NCBI RefSeq assembly: GCF_002081825.1
Contig: NZ_MUKU01000035.1
Location: forward strand, 1 to 53,981
Length of the DNA stretch: 53,981 nt
From: Chromobacterium haemolyticum
Lineage (GTDB): Bacteria > Pseudomonadota > Gammaproteobacteria > Burkholderiales > Chromobacteriaceae
Direction: 5' to 3'
Shown: piece after piece, positions 194 through 48,383 of the stretch
Layout: each line of letters starts with the position of its first letter
How positions within the stretch are numbered: position 1 is the first letter of the stretch
The notes under the pieces: model-generated
Database searches by the model: none
What the model was told of the DNA's origin: nothing
Seen by the model: the letters and a program-made list of their open reading frames with translations, nothing else
Made by a program: the position numbers and the translations under genes

Positions 194-239
194 ACGCCAT
201 CTGGCGGGCTTTGTCATTGCGCGGAGACGCCGGACTTAA

Positions 240-382
240 GAACCTGTTTACGATCTGCTGCGCGTCGTGAAGCGTGGCACGGTGAGTACGCCTTCGAAAT
301 GCTCATGTACCACGCGTACATTCCGCTTTCTCAGCCATTTTCGCCTTGTCTCGCCTTAGCTCGCGAGATCGTAAACACGTTC
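240..382 (-). mobile_element. MITE-like inverted-repeat element, copy 1 (TSD TAA)
   Basis: This 143-bp non-coding element is in the opposite orientation to the other three copies. Its ends are inverted repeats (GAACCTGTTTACGATCT on the left, complement GAACGTGTTTACGATCT on the right). It is flanked by direct TAA repeats at 237-239 and 383-385. The interior carries the family's AAGGCGAGACAAGGCG block and a TGTAC/GTACA core. The right end abuts the minus-strand DUF465 gene. That gene's stop, TAG at 384-382, uses two bases of the duplication plus the terminal G of the element. Joining the flanks without the element restores a TAA stop at the same codon, so the insertion hit the stop codon and kept the protein length. 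Confidence 0.85.
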
Positions 383-597
383 TAATCGGCCGCCTTCCTC
401 AGGATGGCGTACAACTCGTCCTTGAGCCGTAGTTTTTCCTTCTTCAGATTTTCGATTTCGAAGTCGGCGGAAGGCTCGATACGCGCTTCCATATTCTTGA
501 TCTTCTGGTCCAGGTCGTTGTGTTTGTTGAACAGGCGGGTGAAGTGATCGTCTTCGGTTTTCAGCTTGCTGATCAGTTCGCGGTATTCGGGAAACAT
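382..597 (-). CDS. YdcH-like DUF465 small coiled-coil protein
   Basis: This 71-residue protein starts MFPEYRELISKLKTEDDHF and continues with charged heptad-like helices (NLKKEKLRLKDELYAIL). That is the layout of the DUF465/YdcH family, whose members are about 70-80 residues long with no known activity. The start at 597 was chosen because CAAGGAG lies 7 bases upstream. A longer frame to 705 lacks a ribosome site and family similarity. It is a monocistronic minus-strand gene. The last base of its TAG stop is supplied by the adjoining inverted-repeat element. The role is unknown: the protein is predicted cytoplasmic and helical, and may self-associate. Confidence 0.85.
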   Translation of the reverse strand: MFPEYRELISKLKTEDDHFTRLFNKHNDLDQKIKNMEARIEPSADFEIENLKKEKLRLKDELYAILRKAAD

Positions 598-785
598 GGG
601 CGACTCCTTGGGCGGGTGGATACATGGAGCGGCTAACGACGCGGGCCTGAGCGAAGCGTAAGGGCAAAATCGGTAGTCGTCAGCGATTGGATACTGCCAA
701 ACCATGCTAACACCGCGCGGCGGCGAAGGTTATTGATCCAGAGCAGACGCCCTCCCTTAGGCCAGCCGTGCGCAGCAACGTGCTC
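598..785. other. Intergenic region upstream of the DUF465 gene
   Basis: It should hold the minus-strand promoter of the DUF465 gene. I see no convincing -35/-10 pair, RNA or operator. Two overlapping minus-strand frames (up to 667 and 705) read through it, but they have no ribosome site. Confidence 0.4.
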
Positions 786-788
786 TCA

Positions 789-932
789 GAACGTGTTTAC
801 GATCTCTCGAGCTAAGGCGAGACAAGGCGAAAATGGCTGAGAAAGCGGAGTGTACAAGCGGTATATGAGCATTTCGAAGCCGTACTCACCGTGTCACCTC
901 TCACGAAGCGCAGCAGACTTTAGAACAGGTTC
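789..932 (+). mobile_element. MITE-like inverted-repeat element, copy 2 (TSD TCA)
   Basis: The element is 144 bp with left end GAACGTGTTTACGATCT and right-end complement GAACCTGTTCTAAAGTCT. The two arms have diverged from each other here, unlike in copies 1, 3 and 4. Direct TCA repeats flank it at 786-788 and 933-935. The right TCA is exactly the TGA stop codon of the minus-strand solute-binding-like gene, so the insertion left that protein unaltered. It is non-coding throughout. Confidence 0.85.
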
Positions 933-1691
933 TCAGGGCTTGAACCAGGGGCGCCCGTGCTGGGTGGGAAGCTGATAGCGTTCGGCCAGTTTCTCGTAGC
1001 CGCCGGCGGCGGCGAAGCGGCGCAGGCCCAGATTGAAACGGTCGCGGTCGCGGGCATTGCGGAAAGTCAGCCGGTAATGAGTGGGCGTGAACAGCGCGTA
1101 TGGGCAGAGCTTGGCTCTGATGTCGATCTCGCGGCTGAGATCGTGGCTAAACTGCTGGAAGATGTTGATGTCTGAAATCGCCACGTCGGTGCGCTCGCTG
1201 TACAACAGGCGGTTGAGGGTGACCTGCGGCGATTCTTCGCGGTAGGACGGAATCTGCGGCGTCAGCGCGGCGAAAGCTGGCCCCAGATAAAGGTGGGCGC
1301 CCTGAAAGGCCGCCACCCGGAAGCGAACCAGGTCGTCCAGCCGCTGTAGGTGGATGCGGCGTTTGCACAGCGTGATCGCCATGTTCTGGTAAACGATGTA
1401 GGGCTCGGAAACATGGCCGCCGCTATTGGCGATGGCGGCGTCCACCTGGCCGTTTGCCAGCCAGTTGTGCGCGCGCAGATTGGGGCCGAAGCGGATTTGC
1501 GGCTGATAACCCGCCTGGCTTAAGGCCTGGCTGACGATGTCGTATTCCACGCCCTTGCCGCGTTCGGCGTCGATATAGGGTTGTTTGGTTTCGCCCAGCG
1601 CCACCCGTAGCGACGGCAGCGCCGCAATCTGGGCGCTGAGCAGCAGGGCCGGCAAGGCGCGGAGGACGAGGTGGAGCGGCGTGAAAGCCAT
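933..1691 (-). CDS. Periplasmic solute-binding-like protein (SBP_bac_3 type)
   Basis: A protein of about 252 residues. The N-terminus is a likely Sec signal (MAFTPLHLVLRALPALLLSAQIAALP), followed by LRVALGETKQPYI. This is the first strand of type II periplasmic amino-acid-binding folds, then EYDIVSQALSQAGYQ and a second lobe. There is no adjacent ABC permease or ATPase. Such orphan proteins are common in Chromobacterium and Pseudomonas, often annotated as transporter substrate-binding or lytic-transglycosylase-F-like. The start at 1691 puts the signal peptide first. The frame extends to 1973, but that part begins inside the copy 3 repeat element and is improbable. No good Shine-Dalgarno is visible. 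The stop codon is the right target duplication of repeat copy 2. The ligand is unknown. Confidence 0.7.
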   Translation of the reverse strand: MAFTPLHLVLRALPALLLSAQIAALPSLRVALGETKQPYIDAERGKGVEYDIVSQALSQAGYQPQIRFGPNLRAHNWLANGQVDAAIANSGGHVSEPYIVYQNMAITLCKRRIHLQRLDDLVRFRVAAFQGAHLYLGPAFAALTPQIPSYREESPQVTLNRLLYSERTDVAISDINIFQQFSHDLSREIDIRAKLCPYALFTPTHYRLTFRNARDRDRFNLGLRRFAAAGGYEKLAERYQLPTQHGRPWFKP

Positions 1692-1936
1692 GGGCCGGTA
1701 GCGAGTATCGATATGGTTGCAATGGCGCGCCCTTGGGCGGGGCCGTCGAATAGATTCTTTATAGCCGCTGGCCCGGGTCCGGCCTTGCCTGATGCGCGGA
1801 CGCGAGCCGCGGCTGCCGCATTGTAGCGATTGCGCGGCCGGGCTTCCCGGGTTTCCGGCGGGGGACCGGTAAAAAGCGAGAATATGGCTTATCCACAGGG
1901 TTTGACGCAATGCCGTGCTTATCCACAACGTGCTTA
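1692..1936. other. Intergenic region upstream of the solute-binding-like gene
   Basis: GC-rich upstream region of the minus-strand gene ending at 933. It contains two exact DnaA-box sequences near its right end and then the left target duplication of repeat copy 3. I see no gene in it. Confidence 0.4.
1889..1927. promoter_or_regulatory. Pair of exact DnaA boxes, 30 bp apart
   Basis: TTATCCACA occurs at 1889-1897 and again at 1919-1927 in the same orientation. This is the consensus high-affinity DnaA box. The sequence match is direct; regulatory or titration function is inference. No AT-rich unwinding element or replication gene lies next to it, so it is not a credible origin. Confidence 0.45.
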
Positions 1937-2076
1937 GAGCCTGTTCAAAGTCTCGCGAGCAAGGGCGAGACAAGGCGAAAACGGCTGAGAAAGCGGAATG
2001 TACACGTGGTACATGAGCATTTCGAGGGCGTTTTCAACGCCGTATCGCCGAAGCGCAGTAGACTTTGAACAGGCTC
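1937..2076 (+). mobile_element. MITE-like inverted-repeat element, copy 3 (TSD TTA)
   Basis: The element is 140 bp. Both ends differ from copies 1 and 4 but match each other: left GAGCCTGTTCAAAGTCT, right complement identical. The arms therefore co-vary. Direct TTA repeats flank it at 1934-1936 and 2077-2079. The right TTA is the TAA stop codon of pilR on the minus strand. The interior block (GGGCGAGACAAGGCGAAAACGG) and the TGTAC/GTACA core match the family. Confidence 0.85.
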
Positions 2077-3408
2077 TTACTTGATGCCCAGTCTTTCCAT
2101 CCGATAGCGCATCGATCTGAAGGTTACGCCCAGCATCTTGGCGGCTTGGGTGCGGTTGAAGCGGGTGCTCTCCAGCGCCTTGAGGATGGCTTCGCGCTCC
2201 ACGCGGTCCAGAAAGTCCTGCAGCGCCTCGCCGTCGGCGCAGGTCGGCGCCTCGCCGTCGCCATGGCCGCCCTGATCGCTCGGCAGCAGTTGCAGGTCCC
2301 GCAATTCAATGCGGGCGTCGTTGGCCAGGGCCACCGCGCGTTCCAGGATGTTTTCCAGTTCGCGGAAATTGCCCGGATAGTTGTATTCCAGCAAGGCTTT
2401 GAGCGCCGCCGGCGCCAGCCGCGGCTTTTCATCGGGGGAAAAGCGTTCCAGCAGGCTGGCGATGTAGCGCGGCAGATCCTCGCGCAGTTCGCGCAGCGGC
2501 GGCATGCGCAGCGGGAGCACGTTTAGCCGGTAGTACAGATCCTGGCGAAAGTTGCCGGCGTCTACCCGCGCGGCCAAGTCCTTGTGGGTGGCGCAGATGA
2601 TGCGCACGTCCACCGCTTCTTCCTGGGCGTTGCCCAGGCGGCGCACTTTCTTTTCCTGGATCGCGCGCAGCAGTTTGACCTGCATCGCCAGCGGCAGGTC
2701 GGCCACTTCGTCCAGAAACAGCGTGCCGCCGTTGGCTTGCTGAAAGAAGCCGTCGCGGTCGTTGTCGGCGCCGGTGAACGCGCCTTTGCGGTAGCCGAAG
2801 AATTCGCTTTCCATCAGCGTTTCCGGGATGGCGCCGCAGTTGACCGGGATGAACGGCCGTTCGGCGCGCGCGCTGTGCTCGTGTATCATCCGCGCCGCCT
2901 GTTCCTTGCCGGTGCCGGATTCGCCGCTGACGTAAACCGCGGCCTGGCTGCGCGCCAGCTTGCCGATCAAGCGCAGCGCTTCCTGGATCGCCGGCGATTC
3001 GCCGTCCAGCCGCACCGCGGCCTCGGCTTTGCCGTTGTCCACGCGCAGCACGGATTTCACCAGGCTGCGCAATTGAGCCAGGCTGACCGGTTTTTGCAGA
3101 TAGTCGAAGGCGCCGGCCTTCATCGCCAGTACCGCGTTGTCGGTATTGCCGTAGGCGGTGATCACCGCGATGGGCACGTCCAGGCCCTGTTCGGCGATAT
3201 GGCGCACCACTTCGATGCCCTCGCCGTCCGGCAGGCGCATATCGGTCAGCGCCAGGTCGAAGGGCTGGCTGTTCAGGCTGAGTTTGGCGGCGCCGACGCT
3301 GGCGGCGGTGGCCACGTCCAGCCCCATCTTGATCAGGGTCAGTTCCAGCAGTTCGCGGATGTCCGGTTCATCGTCGATCACCAGCACGCGCAGGGAGGAT
3401 TTAGCCAT
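2077..3408 (-). CDS. pilR: Sigma-54-dependent response regulator PilR
   Basis: This 443-residue NtrC-class regulator activates sigma-54 RNA polymerase, classically at the type IV pilin promoter. The receiver domain spans about 1-120, with phospho-acceptor Asp56 in LTDMRLPDG and Lys106 in LQKP. The AAA+ domain spans about 135-370, with Walker A GESGTGKE (162-169), the sigma-54 contact GAFTGA (209-214) and Walker B GGTLFLDEVADL. A Fis-type helix-turn-helix ends the protein (NRTQAAKMLGVTFRSMRYRMERLGI). Its ATG overlaps the end of pilS by 8 bases, so the pair is translationally coupled. The TAA stop is a target duplication of repeat copy 3. PilR is favoured over other NtrC regulators because the partner kinase is PilS-like. 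Confidence 0.88.
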   Translation of the reverse strand: MAKSSLRVLVIDDEPDIRELLELTLIKMGLDVATAASVGAAKLSLNSQPFDLALTDMRLPDGEGIEVVRHIAEQGLDVPIAVITAYGNTDNAVLAMKAGAFDYLQKPVSLAQLRSLVKSVLRVDNGKAEAAVRLDGESPAIQEALRLIGKLARSQAAVYVSGESGTGKEQAARMIHEHSARAERPFIPVNCGAIPETLMESEFFGYRKGAFTGADNDRDGFFQQANGGTLFLDEVADLPLAMQVKLLRAIQEKKVRRLGNAQEEAVDVRIICATHKDLAARVDAGNFRQDLYYRLNVLPLRMPPLRELREDLPRYIASLLERFSPDEKPRLAPAALKALLEYNYPGNFRELENILERAVALANDARIELRDLQLLPSDQGGHGDGEAPTCADGEALQDFLDRVEREAILKALESTRFNRTQAAKMLGVTFRSMRYRMERLGIK

Positions 3409-35379: not shown

Positions 35380-35574
35380 AGACTACGCCTGTCAATCACT
35401 TCGTCGTTCATTGCAGAGGAAATCTGCAGTTCCAGAACGTTGATCCGCCCGGCGAATGTGCATTGGTCAAGCCTCCGCATCGCGCAGATCGGGAGACGTG
35501 TCGAGTCTGTCATCCGCAAATGCACGATTTATTGAATACTTCTGATGGCATTTATCAAGCCGATGGTGATCAAA

Positions 35575-36681
35575 ATGAACAATAAAACGCACAATAGCCT
35601 ACCTGCCGCCGACGGTTTTCACATGCCGGCCGAGTGGGCTGAGCATCAGGCGGTATGGATGATCTGGCCGCAGCGCCCGGATAACTGGCGCCATGCCGGA
35701 CGCGAGGCGCAACAGGCTTTTGCTGCCATCGCCAAAGCCATTTCGGCGACTACGCCCGTGTTCATGGCCGTGCCAGAACCGTTCATGTCACAGGCGCGCG
35801 CCGTCATGCCGTCCGAAGTCACCCTGGTTGCAATGAATAGCGATGACTGCTGGATGCGCGACAGCGGACCGACCATGGTGATCGATCAGGCGGGCCATCT
35901 GCGTGGCGTGGACTGGAAGTTCAATGCCTGGGGCGGCTTCAATGGCGGGCTGTACCATCCTTGGGATCAGGATAGTGAAGTGGCGGGCCAGGTGTTGGCC
36001 CACCATGGCTTTGATCGCTACCTAGCTCCGCTGGTGCTGGAAGGCGGCTCGATTCATGTCGATGGTGAAGGTACGCTGCTCACCACCGCGGAATGTCTGC
36101 TCAATCCCAATCGCAATCCGGATTTGTCCAAAGCCCAGATTGAGGCCTTGCTTTCCGAGTATCTGGATGTGACGCACTTCATCTGGTTGCCGGAAGGCGT
36201 GTTCATGGATGAAACCGACGGTCACATCGACAATATGTGCTGCTTTGCCCGTCCAGGGGAAGTTGTGCTGCACTGGGTCGACGATGAGCAGGATCCGCAG
36301 TATCCGCGTTCGCAGGCCGCCTACGAAGTGCTGTCCAAAGCGCGCGACGCCAAGGGCCGCCAGCTCAAGATCCACAAGATGCTGGCCCCGGGCCCCTTGT
36401 TCTATGAGCAGGATGAAACGGCTGGCGTGGTGGCTAGCGGGCAGGCGGTGCCGCGTGAGGTTGGCGAGCGCATGGCCGCTTCTTATGTCAATTTCCTGAT
36501 CAGCAACGGACAGATTATTTTCCCGCTTCTGGATGAGCGTACCGATGCCGCGGCAGCCAGCCGCTTGCAGGAGATCTTCCCTGAGTACCGAATTGTCGGC
36601 GTCCCGGCACGCGAGGTACTGCTTGGCGGCGGCAATATTCACTGCATAACCCAGCAAATTCCGGCAGGCAAGGCTGGCTGA
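35575..36681 (+). CDS. aguA: Agmatine deiminase
   Basis: This 368-residue enzyme converts agmatine to N-carbamoylputrescine and ammonia. It has the guanidino-group-modifying fold with [14 protein letters not shown] (substrate Asp and general motifs), [29 protein letters not shown] (His/Asp) and the nucleophile Cys357 in [12 protein letters not shown]. The number agrees with the P. aeruginosa enzyme, which supports the ATG at 35575. The upstream ATG at 35545 has no ribosome site. aguB is not adjacent. Divergent from a LysR gene and followed by a terminator, so transcribed alone. Confidence 0.94.
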
Positions 36682-36719: not shown

Positions 36720-36959
36720 TGTCTGCCATGCGCCGAGCTTGTGCGGAATTTTGTGCGTGGTCAGCTTATGGTTCCCAAGGTCGGCCGAGATATGGTTCCG
36801 ATCACACTATGTGACCGGAGGCCTGCCTGGGCCAAACGGCCAAGCTCGTCCTTCCGGTTTCGCGTTTCCGCCCCCTTCCGCAGTCATTCCGTTTTTCGCC
36901 TTTTTCATTCCCTGAGCTCTTGATCCAGCGAGACCTTCCGTGTTTGAAACCCTGCCTCA

Positions 36960-37099
36960 GAACGTGTTTACGATCTCGCGAGCTAAGGCGAGACAAGGCG
37001 AAAACGGTTGAGAAAGCGGAGTGTACAGACGGTACATGAGCATTTCGAAACCATTTTCAACACCGTATCGCCGACGCGCAGCAGATCGTAAACACGTTC
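36960..37099 (+). mobile_element. MITE-like inverted-repeat element, copy 4 (TSD TCA)
   Basis: The element is 140 bp with exact 17-bp terminal inverted repeats (GAACGTGTTTACGATCT at the left, its complement at the right). TCA direct repeats lie at 36957-36959 and 37100-37102. The interior matches copies 1-3. This is the only copy not on a stop codon, although it lies 50 bases beyond the 3' end of the minus-strand adhesin gene. It could serve as that operon's 3' hairpin. Confidence 0.88.
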
Positions 37100-37149
37100 T
37101 CAGACCAAGCCCACGGCACGGCGCATGGGCGGTCAGGGAGGGCACGGCT

Positions 37150-38268
37150 TCAGGGATAGGTGATCATGAAAACGGCCTTGGCATTGGCGTGGCCGGCGGT
37201 GACATTGCCGGTGCGCACATAGTGGGCGAACAGCGGCATGCTGACCATTCCGTCCAGGGGTGAACCCATGTCGAAGCTGGGCGTGCCGGCATCGTTTTCC
37301 GGCCCAAACGTGATGATGTCGCTTTCCGCGCCGGCCAGACTCCGGCTCAGTTGCAGCCCCAGGCCTTGGGCCGCGGCGACGCCTCCTTCGGGGTTGGCGT
37401 TGATGCTGAGTAGCCGGCTGATATTGCCGGGCTGGTTGGCGTCGCTGAACTGAATCTTGGGCCGGGCTTGCGCCGCGCATTTGCTGAGCTGCAGCGAGAA
37501 TTGCTGGGGCGCTTGGGTGGATGGCTGGCCCAAGGCGGGGAAGTCCGCCGGGGTGTACTGGCCCATTGGGACGGTGATGTTGGCGGTCTGTAGTTCGCAG
37601 GTGTTGGCCACGGACACGTTGATGTCCAACAGCTCGCCAAAAGAGGCCTGCTGGTAACAATCTCTTGTTACATTGCCGTTGCGGGTGGCGTCAATGTAGA
37701 AGGAGGCGCCGGCGCCGGGCACGTTCCCCACGGTGCCGCCGGGCGTGGGACCGGTCAAGATCAGTTCCTGATACAGCTGCAAGATTAGGGTGTCGGATGC
37801 TCCGCCATTCGTGCGTTCGGCGGGCTTCGAGGTCAACACGCGTTCTATAGTGGGGTCGTACGGCAGAGAGGGCTCTCCGTTCCCTGCCTGGTAGCTCCAG
37901 CGCAAACCGATGCCGGCGATATTGGTGGGAATGGTTTCATGTGGCCCAAGCTGGCCGCCGTTGCCGTGGGTCCAGGCGCCGTGGATGCGCACGATGTCCG
38001 GGCCGCCAACCTGACCTTGATATTCGCCGCGCACGGCAATGCCGCGCTTGACCAGCACGGTGCCGGGCTTGGTGTTGGCGGTAATGGTGATGGTGTTGCT
38101 GCTCAGGTCAACCCAGGGGCCGGGCTTGGTGTTGGCGAGAGTGCAGTTGCGCGCCGCCGCCGCCGCGTGGGCTGAGACGCCATGGCTAAGCAAAAGGGCG
38201 GTCAGGCAGGCCGCGCATGCGCGCCGGATAAGCCGCGCTTGTGGTGTGGAGCGGATTGCGTGGGCCAT
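37150..38268 (-). CDS. Two-domain fimbrial tip adhesin
   Basis: This 372-residue protein has a Sec signal (about 1-38, ending SAHAAAAA). A lectin-like N-terminal domain covers about 39-215. A C-terminal pilin domain begins at VANTCELQTANITVPMGQY and has the Ig-like Cys pair (Cys in ANTC and in LSKCAAQ). This is the layout of FimH-type tip adhesins. The pilin domain would be held by the chaperone encoded upstream and placed at the fibre tip by the usher. AAGGAAGG lies 6 bases before the ATG. It is the last gene of the operon, 108 bp after the TpsA gene. The receptor is unknown. Confidence 0.72.
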   Translation of the reverse strand: MAHAIRSTPQARLIRRACAACLTALLLSHGVSAHAAAAARNCTLANTKPGPWVDLSSNTITITANTKPGTVLVKRGIAVRGEYQGQVGGPDIVRIHGAWTHGNGGQLGPHETIPTNIAGIGLRWSYQAGNGEPSLPYDPTIERVLTSKPAERTNGGASDTLILQLYQELILTGPTPGGTVGNVPGAGASFYIDATRNGNVTRDCYQQASFGELLDINVSVANTCELQTANITVPMGQYTPADFPALGQPSTQAPQQFSLQLSKCAAQARPKIQFSDANQPGNISRLLSINANPEGGVAAAQGLGLQLSRSLAGAESDIITFGPENDAGTPSFDMGSPLDGMVSMPLFAHYVRTGNVTAGHANAKAVFMITYP

Positions 38269-38376: not shown

Positions 38377-41300
38377 TTAGAAGTAGTAGTAAGACGAGAT
38401 GGTGCCCTGATTGACGCCGTACAGCGGCACCAACAGCGCATTGCCCATGACTTCATTGGCGCGCATCAGGCCGTAGTTCCAACCCACCAGGCCGCCATAG
38501 GTCTGGCGCCAGCCATTGACGAAGTTGACCTTGCTGGTGGCGGTGGAGTAGTCGACGGTGCCGCCGTCTTCGTTCATGCCCACCAGGCCGCCCAGGATGC
38601 TCTCCACGCCGCCGCTGACCGCGCCGCTGGCCACGGAGCTCTGGATTTCGCTCTGGTTGAGTCCCACCAGGCCGCCGACGTTGCTGCGGTATTCGCCGCG
38701 CACATTGCCGGTGGCTTGGGCGGTGGTGATGCGGCCGGCGTTTTCGCTATTGCTGTTGACGCCCACCAGGCCGCCGACGTGGCTGGTGTTGCCGCCGGAA
38801 ACGTCGCCGGAAGCGTCCACGGACTCCAGGTTGCCGCCGTTGTAGCCTACCAGGCCGCCTACTCGGCTATTGGTCCCGCCGCTGACTTTGCCGCTGGCGC
38901 GCGCATAGCTGACGTTGCCGCTGTTGTTGCTGCCTATCAGGCCGCCCACGCGGCTGTTATGGCCGCCGGTCACCGCGCCGCGCGCTTCCGCTGTGCGGAT
39001 GTTGCCGCCGTTGTTGGTGCCGATCAGGCCGCCCAGGCTGGCGCCGGAGGTGTCGTACACCGCGCCGGTGGCGCTGACGTCTTCCAGCTCTCCGCGTTGG
39101 TTAAGGCCCACCAGGCCGCCAATGGCGGAGCTGCCCACGCCGGTGATCTTGCCGCTGGCGCTGGATTTCACGATCTGGCCGCCTTCGTTGTGGCCCACCA
39201 GGCCGCCGATGCGGCTGTCGTAGGTGGCGTATACGCTGTTGCTGGCTTGGGAGTCGATAATCCGGCCGCCTTTGGTGTAGCCCACCAGGCCGCCGACATT
39301 GACGCCGGCGCGGGCGTCGATAGCCCCGGCGGCGCTGGAGCCGCTGATTGTGCCGCCGTTGTTGAGGCCCACCAGGCCGCCCACGCCGCCGCTGCCGATT
39401 TCATTGCGCGGCATGTAGTAGGCGTACACGCGGGCATCGGTGCGGGAGGCATGGATGACGCCGCGGTTTTCCCCCACCAGGCCGCCCAGCACTTGGGTGT
39501 AGCCGTTGCCGTAGACGTTGCCGGTATAGGCGGAGTTGAACACGTCGCCGGTATTGGCGCCGATCAGGCCGCCGACGATGTTCATCGGGCTGCCGTAGGC
39601 GTTGACGGTGGCGTTGCTGGTGGCGTTGTGGACGGTGCCGGTGTTGCGGCCCACCAGGCTGCCGATTTCGACGCGGCCGGTGTAATTGGCGTAGCCGGTT
39701 ACGGAGCTGTTGATCAGGTTGACGTTGCCGATGACGCCGGCGTTGTTGGCGAACAAGCCCAGCGCCGGGCCGGCGTTCTGGATGTTCAGGCGGGTGATGT
39801 TGTTGCCCAGGCCGTCGAACACGCCGGAGAACGCCGCGCCGCCGTTGCCGCCTATGGAGTTGAACACGCGCCCGTAGCCGTCGATGGCGTTGCCCAGCAC
39901 ATAGAGGCCGTTCAGATTGGTGTTGACGGCTTGCAGTTGGGCCACGTCCTGGATCACGGTGTAACGCTTGCCGTTGGATTCGAAGCCGGCGCCCTTGCCG
40001 GACAGGGTGACGCGCTTGCCGGCGGCGACCACGCGGCCTTGGCCGGTAGTGTCTTCGTGGTTGAGCGCCAGCGAGGCGCCGGCTCCGCTCAGGCTGAGGT
40101 TGGCGTTGAGCATGACCTGTTTTTGGGCGGTCAGATCCACCGCGGCGCCTGCGCCGCTGGCGTTGAGGTCGGCATTCAGGTTGACGTTTTGCCGGTCGGA
40201 GCGCAGCGTCAGCTTATTGCCGCTGGACCAATTGATCTTGCCGTTGGCGTTGAGGTCGCCCTGAGTGCTGACCAGCTCGATATGGGTGTTGGCCAGGTTG
40301 CGCGAGACGGTGTCGCTGTAGAGGCCGCTGGACACCGGAGAAGAGGCGGAGGGGCTGAGATCCAGTTGCTCGGCGCTGACTTTCCACGTGCCGGTGCGGC
40401 CGTTGCTGGCCGCGGTGGTGACGTTGGTGGCCAGCGCAACGGTCACGGCCTTGCCTTTGACTTCGATCTGGCCGCCGTCGCCCAGGAAGCTGCCTTGAGC
40501 GCTGGCGTTAAGCGTGCCGGCCACGTTGACGCGCTGATTGTCGCCGGCGTCCAGCACGATCTTGCCGGCGCGGTTTTGCAGGGTGCGGGCTTCGATCACG
40601 CCGGTGTTGTTGACGACGTTGCGCAGGAAGTTGTCGCTGGCGCGGGCGGTCATCAGGACCTCCCCGCCGTCGGCGCGCAGCAGGTTGCCGTTGTGCACTT
40701 GGGCGTTCACGGCGGCGGCGTCCACTTGCAGATTCACCAAGCCGGAGCCGTCGAAGTTCAAGGTGAAGGCCTTGCCGCCGGCCAGGGCCACTTTGCCCAG
40801 GTTGGCCTGGATCACGCCGGTATTGCTGACGCGCGCGCCCAGCAGCGCCACCGCGCCGCCATTTTGGGCGACGAGGGCGCCCTGGTTGGAGACTTCCGCC
40901 GCGGAGTTGCCTTCAAAACGGTAGTTGCCGGCCATGAAGCGTTCGACAGAGAGGTCCTGACTGGAGGCGACCAGGCCGCCCACGTTGACTTGCGCGGTTT
41001 TGCCGAACAGCACCCCGTTGGGGTTGACCAGGAACACGCGGCCGTTGGCGTTTAGCTGCCCCATGATGTTGCTGCCGTCCACGCCCACTACGCGGTTGAG
41101 GGCGATGGAGGCGCTATTGGGCTGGTTGAAGGTGACTTTGTGGCCGTTGCCGATATTGAAGCTGTTCCAGTCGATCGCCAGTTTGTCGCTGGATTGATTG
41201 ATGGACATTTGCTTGCCGTTGTCGAACACCAAGATGTTGCCGTTGCCGGCCTTGATGCTGCCGCCGTCCGGCAAGTTGGCCGCCTGGACGTGCGCGGTCA

Positions 41301-41439
41301 GCAACAGGGCCAGGGCCGGCAGACTACGCGCCAGCAGGCGGCTGCCGCTGCCCGGCTTGCCGCGAGCGCGGCTGAGTTCGCTGCCAACGCTCCAGCACTG
41401 GCGCAGGGAATTCCAAATCAGAGCGTAATTCTTATTCAT
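38377..41439 (-). CDS. Two-partner secretion exoprotein (TpsA) with GLUG repeats
   Basis: This 1020-residue protein begins with the extended signal region (ESPR) of TpsA proteins and autotransporters: MNKNYALIWNSLRQCWSVGSELSRARG, then a Sec signal ending HVQA. The haemagglutination-activity TPS domain follows (LPDGGSI...INQSSDKLAIDWNSFNIG), with the NPNG motif at 139-142 (VFLVNPNGVLFG). After a beta-helix region come about 14 GLUG repeats (GGLVGxN type), from roughly residue 600 to the end. It is expected to cross the outer membrane through the adjacent TpsB and form a surface beta-helix adhesin. GGAG precedes the ATG. No toxin domain is seen at the C-terminus. Confidence 0.88.
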   Translation of the reverse strand: MNKNYALIWNSLRQCWSVGSELSRARGKPGSGSRLLARSLPALALLLTAHVQAANLPDGGSIKAGNGNILVFDNGKQMSINQSSDKLAIDWNSFNIGNGHKVTFNQPNSASIALNRVVGVDGSNIMGQLNANGRVFLVNPNGVLFGKTAQVNVGGLVASSQDLSVERFMAGNYRFEGNSAAEVSNQGALVAQNGGAVALLGARVSNTGVIQANLGKVALAGGKAFTLNFDGSGLVNLQVDAAAVNAQVHNGNLLRADGGEVLMTARASDNFLRNVVNNTGVIEARTLQNRAGKIVLDAGDNQRVNVAGTLNASAQGSFLGDGGQIEVKGKAVTVALATNVTTAASNGRTGTWKVSAEQLDLSPSASSPVSSGLYSDTVSRNLANTHIELVSTQGDLNANGKINWSSGNKLTLRSDRQNVNLNADLNASGAGAAVDLTAQKQVMLNANLSLSGAGASLALNHEDTTGQGRVVAAGKRVTLSGKGAGFESNGKRYTVIQDVAQLQAVNTNLNGLYVLGNAIDGYGRVFNSIGGNGGAAFSGVFDGLGNNITRLNIQNAGPALGLFANNAGVIGNVNLINSSVTGYANYTGRVEIGSLVGRNTGTVHNATSNATVNAYGSPMNIVGGLIGANTGDVFNSAYTGNVYGNGYTQVLGGLVGENRGVIHASRTDARVYAYYMPRNEIGSGGVGGLVGLNNGGTISGSSAAGAIDARAGVNVGGLVGYTKGGRIIDSQASNSVYATYDSRIGGLVGHNEGGQIVKSSASGKITGVGSSAIGGLVGLNQRGELEDVSATGAVYDTSGASLGGLIGTNNGGNIRTAEARGAVTGGHNSRVGGLIGSNNSGNVSYARASGKVSGGTNSRVGGLVGYNGGNLESVDASGDVSGGNTSHVGGLVGVNSNSENAGRITTAQATGNVRGEYRSNVGGLVGLNQSEIQSSVASGAVSGGVESILGGLVGMNEDGGTVDYSTATSKVNFVNGWRQTYGGLVGWNYGLMRANEVMGNALLVPLYGVNQGTISSYYYF

Positions 41440-41510
41440 GACAACTCCATCTTGTTGATAAGCGAAATGCGGACTCCCGTGTGAGGGAGGGTGTATCCAG
41501 CGCGGCGACG

Positions 41511-43208
41511 TCACAGTTGCCAGGTCGCCTGCGCCCAGATAGCGGGGTTGCGCGTGTCCTGGCCGCCGTCGTTGCCGACGCGCCAGGCCGCGCTCACATT
41601 CAGTCTCAGGCTGTCGCGCAGCCAGTTCAGGCCCAGTCCGGCCGCGGCGCGGCTCAGGACGGGGTTGCGATAGCCCCAATCGCGCTTGTTGGCGCGGGTT
41701 TGGCCATAGTCGTAAAACAAGGCGGTTTCCACGCCGGGCCAGGCGGCGTAGCGCAGCTCCAGGTTGCCTATCCAGCCTTGGTCGCCGCTGGCGTCGCCAG
41801 CCGGATAGGCGCGCACCGCGTAGGGGCCGCCCAAGCTGATTTTTTCCGAGGAATCCAGATTGCGGTCCGCCCATTGGCCGTTGAATTGGGCGTAGAGGCT
41901 GAAGCGCTGGCTGAGCCGTTGCAGGCGGACGGCGCTGAGGCTGAGCTTGCCGAAATGACCTTGGGTATCGGCGGTCAGCCGGTCGGCCCACCGCGCTATC
42001 GGGTCGTCAATGCCGAGCCGGCCGTAACCGTAGCCCAGCGAGGCCTGGCTGATGCCGCCGCCGCCCCAGCCATCCTGGCCGTTGGCGCTGAGCATGGCGG
42101 TCCATAGGCGCACGCGTTTGGCGCCGCGGCTGTCAAGCAAGTCGATGTCGTCTTTGAGCCGCTTGTCGTCATACATCAGTTGGGCGTAGGCGCTGGCGTT
42201 CCGGCCGCGCCACAGCGGCTGGGAGAGAAATCCGCTTTGGATGCGGGCGTTGCCATGGGCTTCCAGATCCGTGAAGTCCCGTCCCAGCCGGTATTCCATA
42301 TTGGAGTAAGCGGCGCCCACCCGCGTCAGCCAGGGGCCGACCGGCAGTTGATAGGACAGGCGTTGGTATTGCTGGCGGCCATCGCTGCCCATTGCCCGCA
42401 GGCTGAGCTGATCGCCCAGCGCCAGAGGGTTGTTGAGGTTGAGGTTGCCGCCCAGCCGGTATTCGCCGGTGTATTTGCTGCCGTAGTTGTCGAGTTCGAC
42501 GCCGCCGCTCAATCGTTCCCCGGGCAGGGCCTGCACCAGCAGCTCGGAGCTGCCGGCCTGGCTGCCGGGCCGCAGAGTGGAGCGCACTTTGACGCCGGGC
42601 AGGTCATTCAAGCGCAACAGGGCGCTGTCCAGCGCGTCGCGCTCCACCAGCTGGCCCGCCAAAGGGCGCAGCGGCGCTTGCAGCACCTCGTTGCGCACGG
42701 CGGAGGCGTTGTCCAGCGTCACTTGGTCGTAACGGCCTTCCTGAATGTCGATCCGCACCCAGCCGCCTTCGATATCCTGAGGCGGCAGATAGGCTTGGGC
42801 CAGCAGATAGCCGTGCTGCTGATAGAAGCGCGTGATGCCGCTGGCCGCTGCGTGTAGTTCGGCCAGGCTGAGTTCCTGGCCGGCCAAGGCTTGCAGTTGC
42901 CGGGCCAGCGTGTCTTGAGCGAATACGCTGTTGCCGCTGAAGCGGAAACCGGTCACCAGCAGGCGCGGGCCGGTGTCCTGGACGGCCGGGGATTCGGCTG
43001 CCGGCGGCGTCAATTCCAGCTGCGGAGCCGGGGTAGGCAGCAGCTGCGGCCGCGCCGACTCAATGTCGCGCAAGGACTGGCCGGCGTCCGGCCGTTGCGC
43101 CAAGCCGGGCGCGCTCCATGCTAGGCCCAGGCCGGCCGCTAACAGCAGACTATGGGCGCGGCGGTTCAAGATGGGCGCGCGGGACGGGAGGGGGGATCGG
43201 TTCTTCAT
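41511..43208 (-). CDS. TpsB outer-membrane translocator (ShlB/FhaC type)
   Basis: This 565-residue protein has a Sec signal (about 1-38) and a POTRA pair at about 82-230 (VTGFRFSGNSVFAQDTLARQL; VRIDIQEGRYDQVTL). A 16-strand barrel follows. The loop-6 motif appears as VRAYPAGDASGDQGW (variant of the conserved VRGY). A Pro-rich linker (PTPAPQLELTPP) precedes POTRA. It secretes the adjacent TpsA. The gene starts only 10 bases after the usher stop, and the ribosome site is weak, so translation may depend on the upstream gene. Confidence 0.9.
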   Translation of the reverse strand: MKNRSPLPSRAPILNRRAHSLLLAAGLGLAWSAPGLAQRPDAGQSLRDIESARPQLLPTPAPQLELTPPAAESPAVQDTGPRLLVTGFRFSGNSVFAQDTLARQLQALAGQELSLAELHAAASGITRFYQQHGYLLAQAYLPPQDIEGGWVRIDIQEGRYDQVTLDNASAVRNEVLQAPLRPLAGQLVERDALDSALLRLNDLPGVKVRSTLRPGSQAGSSELLVQALPGERLSGGVELDNYGSKYTGEYRLGGNLNLNNPLALGDQLSLRAMGSDGRQQYQRLSYQLPVGPWLTRVGAAYSNMEYRLGRDFTDLEAHGNARIQSGFLSQPLWRGRNASAYAQLMYDDKRLKDDIDLLDSRGAKRVRLWTAMLSANGQDGWGGGGISQASLGYGYGRLGIDDPIARWADRLTADTQGHFGKLSLSAVRLQRLSQRFSLYAQFNGQWADRNLDSSEKISLGGPYAVRAYPAGDASGDQGWIGNLELRYAAWPGVETALFYDYGQTRANKRDWGYRNPVLSRAAAGLGLNWLRDSLRLNVSAAWRVGNDGGQDTRNPAIWAQATWQL

Positions 43209-47399: not shown

Positions 47400-47805
47400 A
47401 AAGCACTCCACACTTAATTAAGTTAAATCACAGCCGTGACCATGTTTCCTGACCACCGCCCGCTTGGCAGGCCGTCGCCTGAAATTGCCACAGTCTGCCG
47501 CCAATGACCGACATAGTCGTCAATCGGCAGGCACATTATCAGTAGCTATTCTTAATAATTGAATAAGGCGTTTCTTAAAACCCGGGCTTTGGCCGCAGAT
47601 TAAGGAATTACTTAATGGAATAAATAATTGCGTGATTAAGCGAGGCCGTCACTGTGGATGCTGTGTAATAGCCCGCACCCTTTCTGAAGCGTGCTGCAGG
47701 TGCGCATCCTGAAATAGTACAGCGAGGGAGCGAGCACGGAGCAACGCCGCTATCGGGCCGCGCAGCAGGTTTTTCGAGGTCCCTAGAAGAAGCAGGGTTG
47801 TCAGC
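47400..47805. other. Upstream region of the fimbrial/TPS operon and IS5 5' debris
   Basis: About 400 bp that should hold the minus-strand operon promoter. The 47530-47640 part is AT-rich. The 47640-47805 part is probably rearranged IS debris preceding the transposase remnant. I cannot place a promoter with confidence. Confidence 0.35.
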
Positions 47806-48383
47806 ATCTCCTGATGGATAGCACCGGCATCAAGAGGATGGGCGAAGGAGAGTGGAAGGTGAAAAAGCATGGTGCTGACTACCTCCGTCAATGGCGCAAG
47901 CTGCATCTGGGAATGGATGCACAGACGCTGGAAATCCCGGTAATGGAGGTGACCGACAATCGCACCGGCGATGCCACGATGCTACCTGAGCTGCTATCGC
48001 AAATTCGGGCGGCACAGGGACTGGTGACGGTGACAACGGATGGGTCGTGCGACACGTCTATGTCACGCAGCAATTGTGGAGCGCGGAGCTGCCATTATCC
48101 CCCCGCGACGAAATGGCCAATTTTGGCAAGGGAATTCACAAGGCAAGCAGGCGCGCAATGAGTCGCTACGCTTAGTGAAGTATCTGGGGCGAACGCTCTG
48201 GAAAAAGTGGAGTGGCTACCATCGCCGCAACTTGGTTGAAACGAGGATGCACTGCTTCAAATTACTGGCAGACCGGGTCAAGTCGGGGGACTTTGACCGG
48301 TAGGTGGCGAGCTTCAAATCTGTGCAACGATTCTGAATCGTTTCACAGCGCTAGGTACGCCGCAAACGGTACGCGCGGGATAA
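47806..48383 (+). pseudogene. Decayed IS5-family transposase
   Basis: The region encodes the C-terminal two thirds of an IS5-type DDE transposase. The first frame reads LLMDSTGIKRMGEGEWKVKKHG...EVTDNRTGDATMLPELLSQI. A frameshift near 48055 leads into RLCHAAIVERGAAIIPPRRNG...WKKWSGYHRRNLVETRMHCFKLL. A stop at 48301 and further damage follow before the family C-terminus LGTPQTVRAG-TAA at 48351-48383. The N-terminal third is missing. It cannot be active. It separates the two divergent fimbrial clusters. Confidence 0.85.

Follow-up and report, generated by a model that had tools for sequence, protein, structure and literature searches.

Miniature inverted-repeat elements with IS5/IS1031-type ends and their association with stop codons in Chromobacterium haemolyticum and related genomes

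The 53,981-nt stretch of Chromobacterium haemolyticum DNA analyzed here (contig NZ_MUKU01000035.1 of assembly GCF_002081825.1, positions 1 to 53,981; the window hereafter) contains four copies of a short non-coding element, listed with the adjoining genes in Table 1. The initial annotation described them as elements with terminal inverted repeats and direct repeats of the form TNA, and all four are real, each being bounded by an exact 3-bp TNA target-site duplication (TSD). As also proposed, in three of the four cases the TNA overlaps a stop codon belonging to a gene on the minus strand. The right TSD of copy 2 supplies all three letters of the TGA stop of an open reading frame (ORF), and the right TSD of copy 3 is the TAA stop of a response-regulator gene; copy 1 overlaps the stop of a DUF465 gene by two bases, this TAG being composed of TA from the TSD and G, the first base of the element. 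The suggestion that joining the flanks of copy 1 restores a TAA agrees with the outer flank, which reads TAA where TAG now ends the gene. In the C. alkanivorans locus L213, which has no element at this place, the DUF465 gene ends at the same codon (TAG) with a different last residue. Copy 4 lies off any stop codon, in a convergent intergenic region. Among the gene names first assigned, DUF465 is supported by a match to PF04325; "pilR" fits insofar as the product is a sigma-54-dependent response regulator, although no PilR-specific model matched; and "solute-binding-like" was not confirmed for the ORF beside copy 2, which has no Pfam or NCBIfam match. An Rfam scan of positions 1-2500 returned nothing above the gathering score. 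The four copies belong to an abundant family of miniature inverted-repeat transposable elements (MITEs) of the IS5/IS1031 kind whose link to stop codons is unusually clean.

Table 1. Elements, adjoining genes and an empty target site in the window
Feature	Position	Strand	Basis
MITE copy 1	element 240-382, TSD TAA 237-239/383-385 (whole 237..385)	minus	sequence
MITE copy 2	element 789-932, TSD TCA 786-788/933-935 (whole 786..935)	plus	sequence
MITE copy 3	element 1937-2076, TSD TTA 1934-1936/2077-2079 (whole 1934..2079)	plus	sequence
MITE copy 4	element 36960-37099, TSD TCA 36957-36959/37100-37102 (whole 36957..37102)	plus	sequence
DUF465 gene, 71 aa from ATG at 597, stop TAG 382-384	382..597	minus	PF04325 match
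ORF ending in right TSD of copy 2	933..1973	minus	ORF; no Pfam or NCBIfam match
Sigma-54-dependent response regulator (pilR-like), stop = TSD of copy 3	2077..3408	minus	profile matches
Empty site, TAA	32263..32265	none	matching TAA filled by an element in C. aquaticum L246

The genome of the window (G000) has 167 matches to the 31-bp core of the element at up to 3 mismatches, and the reversed-pattern control has 0. With a slightly looser core pattern the family is present in 24 of 61 genomes, its own included. There are 156-258 core matches in each of five Chromobacterium genomes, 0-5 in the 14 others from this genus, and 1 to 54 in some further genera of the family and order; the carriers among the matches listed are C. 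alkanivorans, C. haemolyticum, C. aquaticum, Crenobacter and Craterilacuibacter. The copies, 191 of them within 1.305 Mb of G000, have the properties expected of MITEs: they are short (mostly 140 and 143 bp) and non-coding, with paired ends, a duplication of fixed length, many copies and sites that are empty in relatives. A literature search found no description of this MITE family. For the counts below, we used four sources of sequence picked around copies, namely 88 merged stretches of G000 (1.305 Mb), 60 of G005 (0.957 Mb), 20 of G001 (0.314 Mb) and 80 named loci (0.615 Mb), some of which share a genome with G001. An nhmmer profile identified 510 copies before de-duplication; the 245 copies with identical TNA on both sides were clustered by their flanks into 213 distinct insertions, and the other 265 (mutated, partial, one-sided or edge copies) were excluded from the main count.

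The TSD coincides with a stop codon (offset 0) in 118 of the 213 insertions (55%), overlaps one at offset +1 in eight and lies elsewhere in 87. The offset +1 cases were kept apart because TTA followed by the first G of the element makes a new TAG, so that an old stop is unproven there. In G000, 44 of 82 clean insertions are at stops, against 10% expected from noncoding TNA sites and 21-25% after weighting each site by the flanks that non-stop insertions prefer; together with the count over the four sources, this answers in the affirmative the proposal to look for enrichment at stops genome-wide. Before de-duplication, offset 0 was found for 40/82 insertions in G000, 43/73 in G005, 13/23 in G001 and 38/67 in the named loci (C. 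alkanivorans 13/22, C. aquaticum 9/16, C. haemolyticum 7/17, Crenobacter 6/6, Craterilacuibacter 3/6), and among full-length copies regardless of TSD the four sets give 65/140, 59/110, 17/33 and 57/97, respectively. The stops used are TAA in 82 cases and TGA in 36, as against 1621 TGA, 950 TAA and 294 TAG among gene stops overall; this usage follows the T/A-rich centre of the target, which is seen away from stops too. A called gene runs into the element at only five of the 213 insertions, and no element is spanned by a gene call, the latter being a weak test since gene calling would not bridge an element that interrupts a gene.

Judging by its ends, the likely mobilizer of the MITE is an IS5-family, IS1031-like insertion sequence (IS). 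One IS copy, L121, is 861 bp long and decayed, with TAA and TTA outside; another, L290 in G001, is 850 bp long with TAA on both sides, and both have the ends GAACCTGTTCAAAGTCT. At contig ends there is a second IS type with the ends GAGCCTGTTCACGATCTTTT, and the two IS end types correspond to the two end types of the MITE. L290 carries two overlapping frames with a run of A in the overlap, which match DUF4096 and DDE_Tnp_1 above the Pfam cut-offs; against the IS5-family model NF033580 the second frame scores 150.9 bits (cut-off 110) and the first 97.8, under the cut-off. Some IS1031 members make their transposase by a -1 frameshift across two frames. Between the IS of L290 and the TAA that ends the next gene, presumably xseA as recognized from its translation alone, lies one 10-bp remnant. 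These elements thus fit the IS5 family by their DDE transposase and the IS1031 description by TNA, ends and length, the TSDs of L121 being unequal; the IS1031 assignment comes from comparison with a passage of PMC12016507, where such ends, length and TNA are described for the subgroup. The IS1031-subgroup member ISLrh (IS5 family) is 857 bp long with 17-bp ends and TNA (PMC12016507), and the IS found here resembles it in having ends starting GAACCTGT, a length of 850-861 bp, an IS5-family transposase, TNA duplications and two overlapping frames. Compared with that part of the ISLrh account, the 140-bp derivative (156-258 matches in five genomes), C-TNA-G, the overlap with stops and the arrays are features of the present system.

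Facing pairs of IS ends 371-402 bp apart occur at eight places in G000 (C9:26469-26839, C11:66972-67347, C22:15176-15546, C24:53414-53784, C34:31418-31796, C43:22358-22733, C48:8977-9352 and C58:7193-7594). They possibly represent internally deleted IS copies, intermediate between the full IS and the MITE of 140 bp.

The target consensus of the MITE is C-TNA-G with a T/A-rich centre. To compare stops with noncoding TNA sites, we calculated odds ratios stratified by the five target bases, free sites being counted twice where stretches overlap. Against all matched noncoding sites the ratio for stops is 5.08 (z 11.6); tandem regions by themselves give 5.00 (z 8.7) and convergent regions 2.07 (z 2.6). 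When the comparison is limited by distance downstream of the gene, the ratios for limits of 100, 60, 30 and 15 nt are 2.55 (z 5.3), 1.84 (z 3.2), 1.67 (z 2.3) and 1.76 (z 1.9), respectively, and the 100-nt limit applied to convergent regions gives 1.47 (z 1.3). Removal of nested-looking insertions gives 5.49 for all sites, 1.93 for convergent regions, 2.70 for 100 nt, 1.87 (z 2.4) for 30 nt and 1.25 (z 0.6) for convergent regions with the 100-nt limit. The C-TNA-G sites 6-20 nt past a stop are at least as occupied as the stops themselves (13 elements vs 47 free sites, compared with 60 vs 374), and none of the eight such sites 3-5 nt past a stop is used. Divergent regions contain nine insertions vs 5563 free sites. 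Because the excess mostly vanishes once both the sequence context and the position at gene 3' ends are matched, stops seem to be favored mainly as the most frequent of the harmless C-TNA-G sites at gene ends, possibly with an extra preference of up to about twofold. The view of stop codons as natural low-cost targets is therefore the best reading of the data, and preference and purifying selection, which the initial annotation held to be inseparable on three cases, can be separated in part.

We consider it probable that the MITEs are moved by IS5/IS1031-like transposases and that a preference for C-TNA-G, combined with tolerance at gene 3' ends, explains their position on stops. According to this model, transposases of full IS1031-like elements would mobilize the non-autonomous MITEs that share their ends, inserting them at TNA with a strong preference for C-TNA-G and duplicating the TNA. 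TAA and TGA are TNA words and, in this genome of 63% GC, often stand within C-TAA-G or C-TGA-G; an insertion there would leave the protein unchanged, because a copy of the stop codon stays next to the gene. Selection would remove hits inside genes and in promoter regions, the survivors lying at gene 3' ends and about half of them exactly on stops.

Several observations weigh against this explanation. The stop excess of ~1.3-2.1 fold that remains after site matching is not fully explained, and the ratio in convergent regions, which is 1.80 (z 1.2) in G000, reaches 4.58 (z 3.0) when only the named loci are counted. The genes were called with our own fifth-order codon-position model, with no annotation used. 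Complete IS copies are few, with one full decayed copy in G000 and one in G001, and the complete genome G005, which has 156 MITE copies, gave no match to an IS of the L121/L290 type, the second IS type not having been searched there. A transposase or its complex might instead actively seek gene 3' ends or stops, for instance via transcription termination, supercoiling or translation, beyond recognizing a DNA word, although we regard this as rather unlikely. The residual ratios for 30 nt, with or without nested-looking insertions, and for convergent regions agree with such a pull, as does the heavy occupation of C-TNA-G just past the stops, and the share at stops is similar among insertions absent from a relative (19/36) and shared ones (59/114), as if it were fixed at insertion. 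However, the ratio in convergent regions within 100 nt is low whether nested-looking insertions are kept or removed, stops are no hotter than the C-TNA-G sites immediately downstream, and selection against promoter hits accounts for the remainder equally well.

The element starts with G and ends with C, therefore C-TNA-G is rebuilt at both of its edges, and 543 element edges read CTNAG; the same place could thus accept more elements, resulting in head-to-tail arrays. Of the 29 neighbor pairs with a spacing of -20 to 60 bp, 26 are separated by exactly 3 bp and all 26 of these are head-to-tail, with TNA between the partners in 25 (20 distinct sites); other neighbors within 2 kb show the same orientation in 38 cases and the opposite in 43. 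An origin of the pairs by tandem duplication was ruled out, the median identity of partners (0.746) equaling that of random pairs (0.762). Since partners are no more alike than random copies, they are separate insertions, a conclusion supported by relatives that have just one element of the pair (G000 C88 vs L201; L169 vs L208). Long palindromes are unstable in bacteria, and the lack of head-to-head pairs may reflect either this instability or a transposase reading the ends of the resident element. As a tentative extension, C-TNA-G might be a gene-safe address in the genetic code that picks out stop codons in high-GC genomes; with the stop kept by the duplication and the address restored at each landing, stops would be self-renewing docking sites for arrays, possibly with a pull toward 3' ends in addition. 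For the second IS type, 31 ends (30 of 51 pattern places) were inspected: GTTC or GCTC, a four-base mark of a family edge, stands outside in 19, some by chance and some not resembling true ends, and five of the 31 ends lie on the stop of a called gene.

The initial annotation also suggested that the element may become the 3' hairpin of the gene, which is structurally plausible, with no function shown. The whole element folds as one long hairpin (-71.9 and -60.7 kcal/mol for the two strands of copy 3), and the mean folding z over 25 elements is -6.56 and -5.40 on the two strands. In a random sample of 60 from the 123 copies of 139-141 bp, placed on the fold of copy 3, two-sided changes occur in 19 of 50 pairs, a number reached by none of 500 shuffles, which ignore relatedness, and slid partners give 6-11. 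An interior helix away from the ends (alignment A2, columns 41-58 with 81-99) has such changes in seven of 15 pairs. Selection acting on the RNA or on the DNA could produce this covariation, as could inherited subfamilies or the templated repair of imperfect palindromes. The comparison meant to identify the RNA strand was not decisive, either by G.T vs A.C cells (67 vs 36 in the interior, 50 vs 26 at the ends) or by pairs (12 to 7 and 8 to 7). Relative to the gene of the stop, 83 of the 118 elements at stops are in the opposite and 35 in the same orientation. A functional reading of this bias was dropped, as 51 of 79 non-nested elements compare with 45.6-49.0 under an oriented target model; with nested ones included, the model expects 66.5-68.9 of 118 against the observed 83. 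Retention of elements at stops through domestication, the hairpin serving as 3' end or stabilizer of the RNA, would accord with the fold and the covarying pairs, and we nevertheless judge it improbable: the share at stops does not increase among shared, older insertions, orientation is mixed and explained by target asymmetry in the non-nested cases, runs of five T's are few (14 and 31 of 140 elements on the two strands), and the structure may serve transposition or come from templated repair.

Sites in relatives bear on whether the stops preceded the elements. Matching sites in another source exist for 200 elements; an exact-gap empty site was found for 36 of these, 19 of them at stops, with counts taken per element and not de-duplicated. 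A single TNA, as the initial annotation anticipated for empty sites, is present at every one of the 19 stop sites and at 31 of the 36 sites overall. Another element adjoins 17 of the 36 "empty" sites, and some of these match element sequence and not a true orthologous flank. The 19 sites without a neighboring element comprise 11 at stops and three without TNA. The response-regulator gene of copy 3 was compared across 19 genomes of Chromobacterium: an element occupies the same TAA in G001, G005 has a remnant, G002 an element-like sequence ~15 bp downstream, and G014 a plain TAA with a difference of ~24 bp downstream, and the stretch read in the other 14 genomes contains no element. The site of copy 2 is occupied also in C. 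alkanivorans and G014, therefore this insertion is not recent. Across 785-3408 of the window and the loci L213, L261, L262 and L263, the two gene ends hold full elements, remnants or nothing, and they look like a small insertion hot spot. That the elements truncate genes and supply the stops themselves is barely credible: the offset +1 cases and the five genes running into elements could arise in this way, but an offset-0 stop pre-existed its insertion because it lies wholly within the duplicated target, 107 of the 118 genes concerned have a gene-model score of at least 30, all exact-gap empty stop sites keep the TNA, the response-regulator gene stops at the same codon in relatives, and no inspected empty orthologous site has a gene reading on through the target.

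Insertion at a gene 3' end with the protein left intact recalls Tn7, which inserts at glmS; Tn7 relies on a dedicated protein to reach its single site, whereas here a 5-bp word serves many genes. The Correia elements of Neisseria are bacterial MITEs linked to a TA target. The present MITE is like them in being short, non-coding and multicopy, with inverted ends, a hairpin and presumed mobilization in trans, and differs from them in its TNA target and IS5-type ends. We know of no description of exact stop-codon targeting for Correia elements. They are mentioned in PMC4853749. The family described here is a countable case of a transposon target word overlapping the stop-codon code, with 150-260 copies per genome, few called genes hit and every landing recreating its own target, and it offers a ready system to separate insertion preference from selection.

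In the window, copy 4 is flanked by genes for a peptidyl-arginine deiminase family protein (35545-36678, plus strand) and a fimbrial protein (37155-38268, minus strand). Beyond them, the minus-strand gene 38382-41514 encodes a large protein with a two-partner secretion (TPS) domain, an ESPR signal and GLUG repeats, which looks like a two-partner secreted adhesin; 87-bp DNA repeats lie within this gene at 38.4-39.7 kb. A short frame at 47802-48044 (plus strand) encodes a piece of a DDE_Tnp_1 transposase and apparently belongs to another, broken IS.

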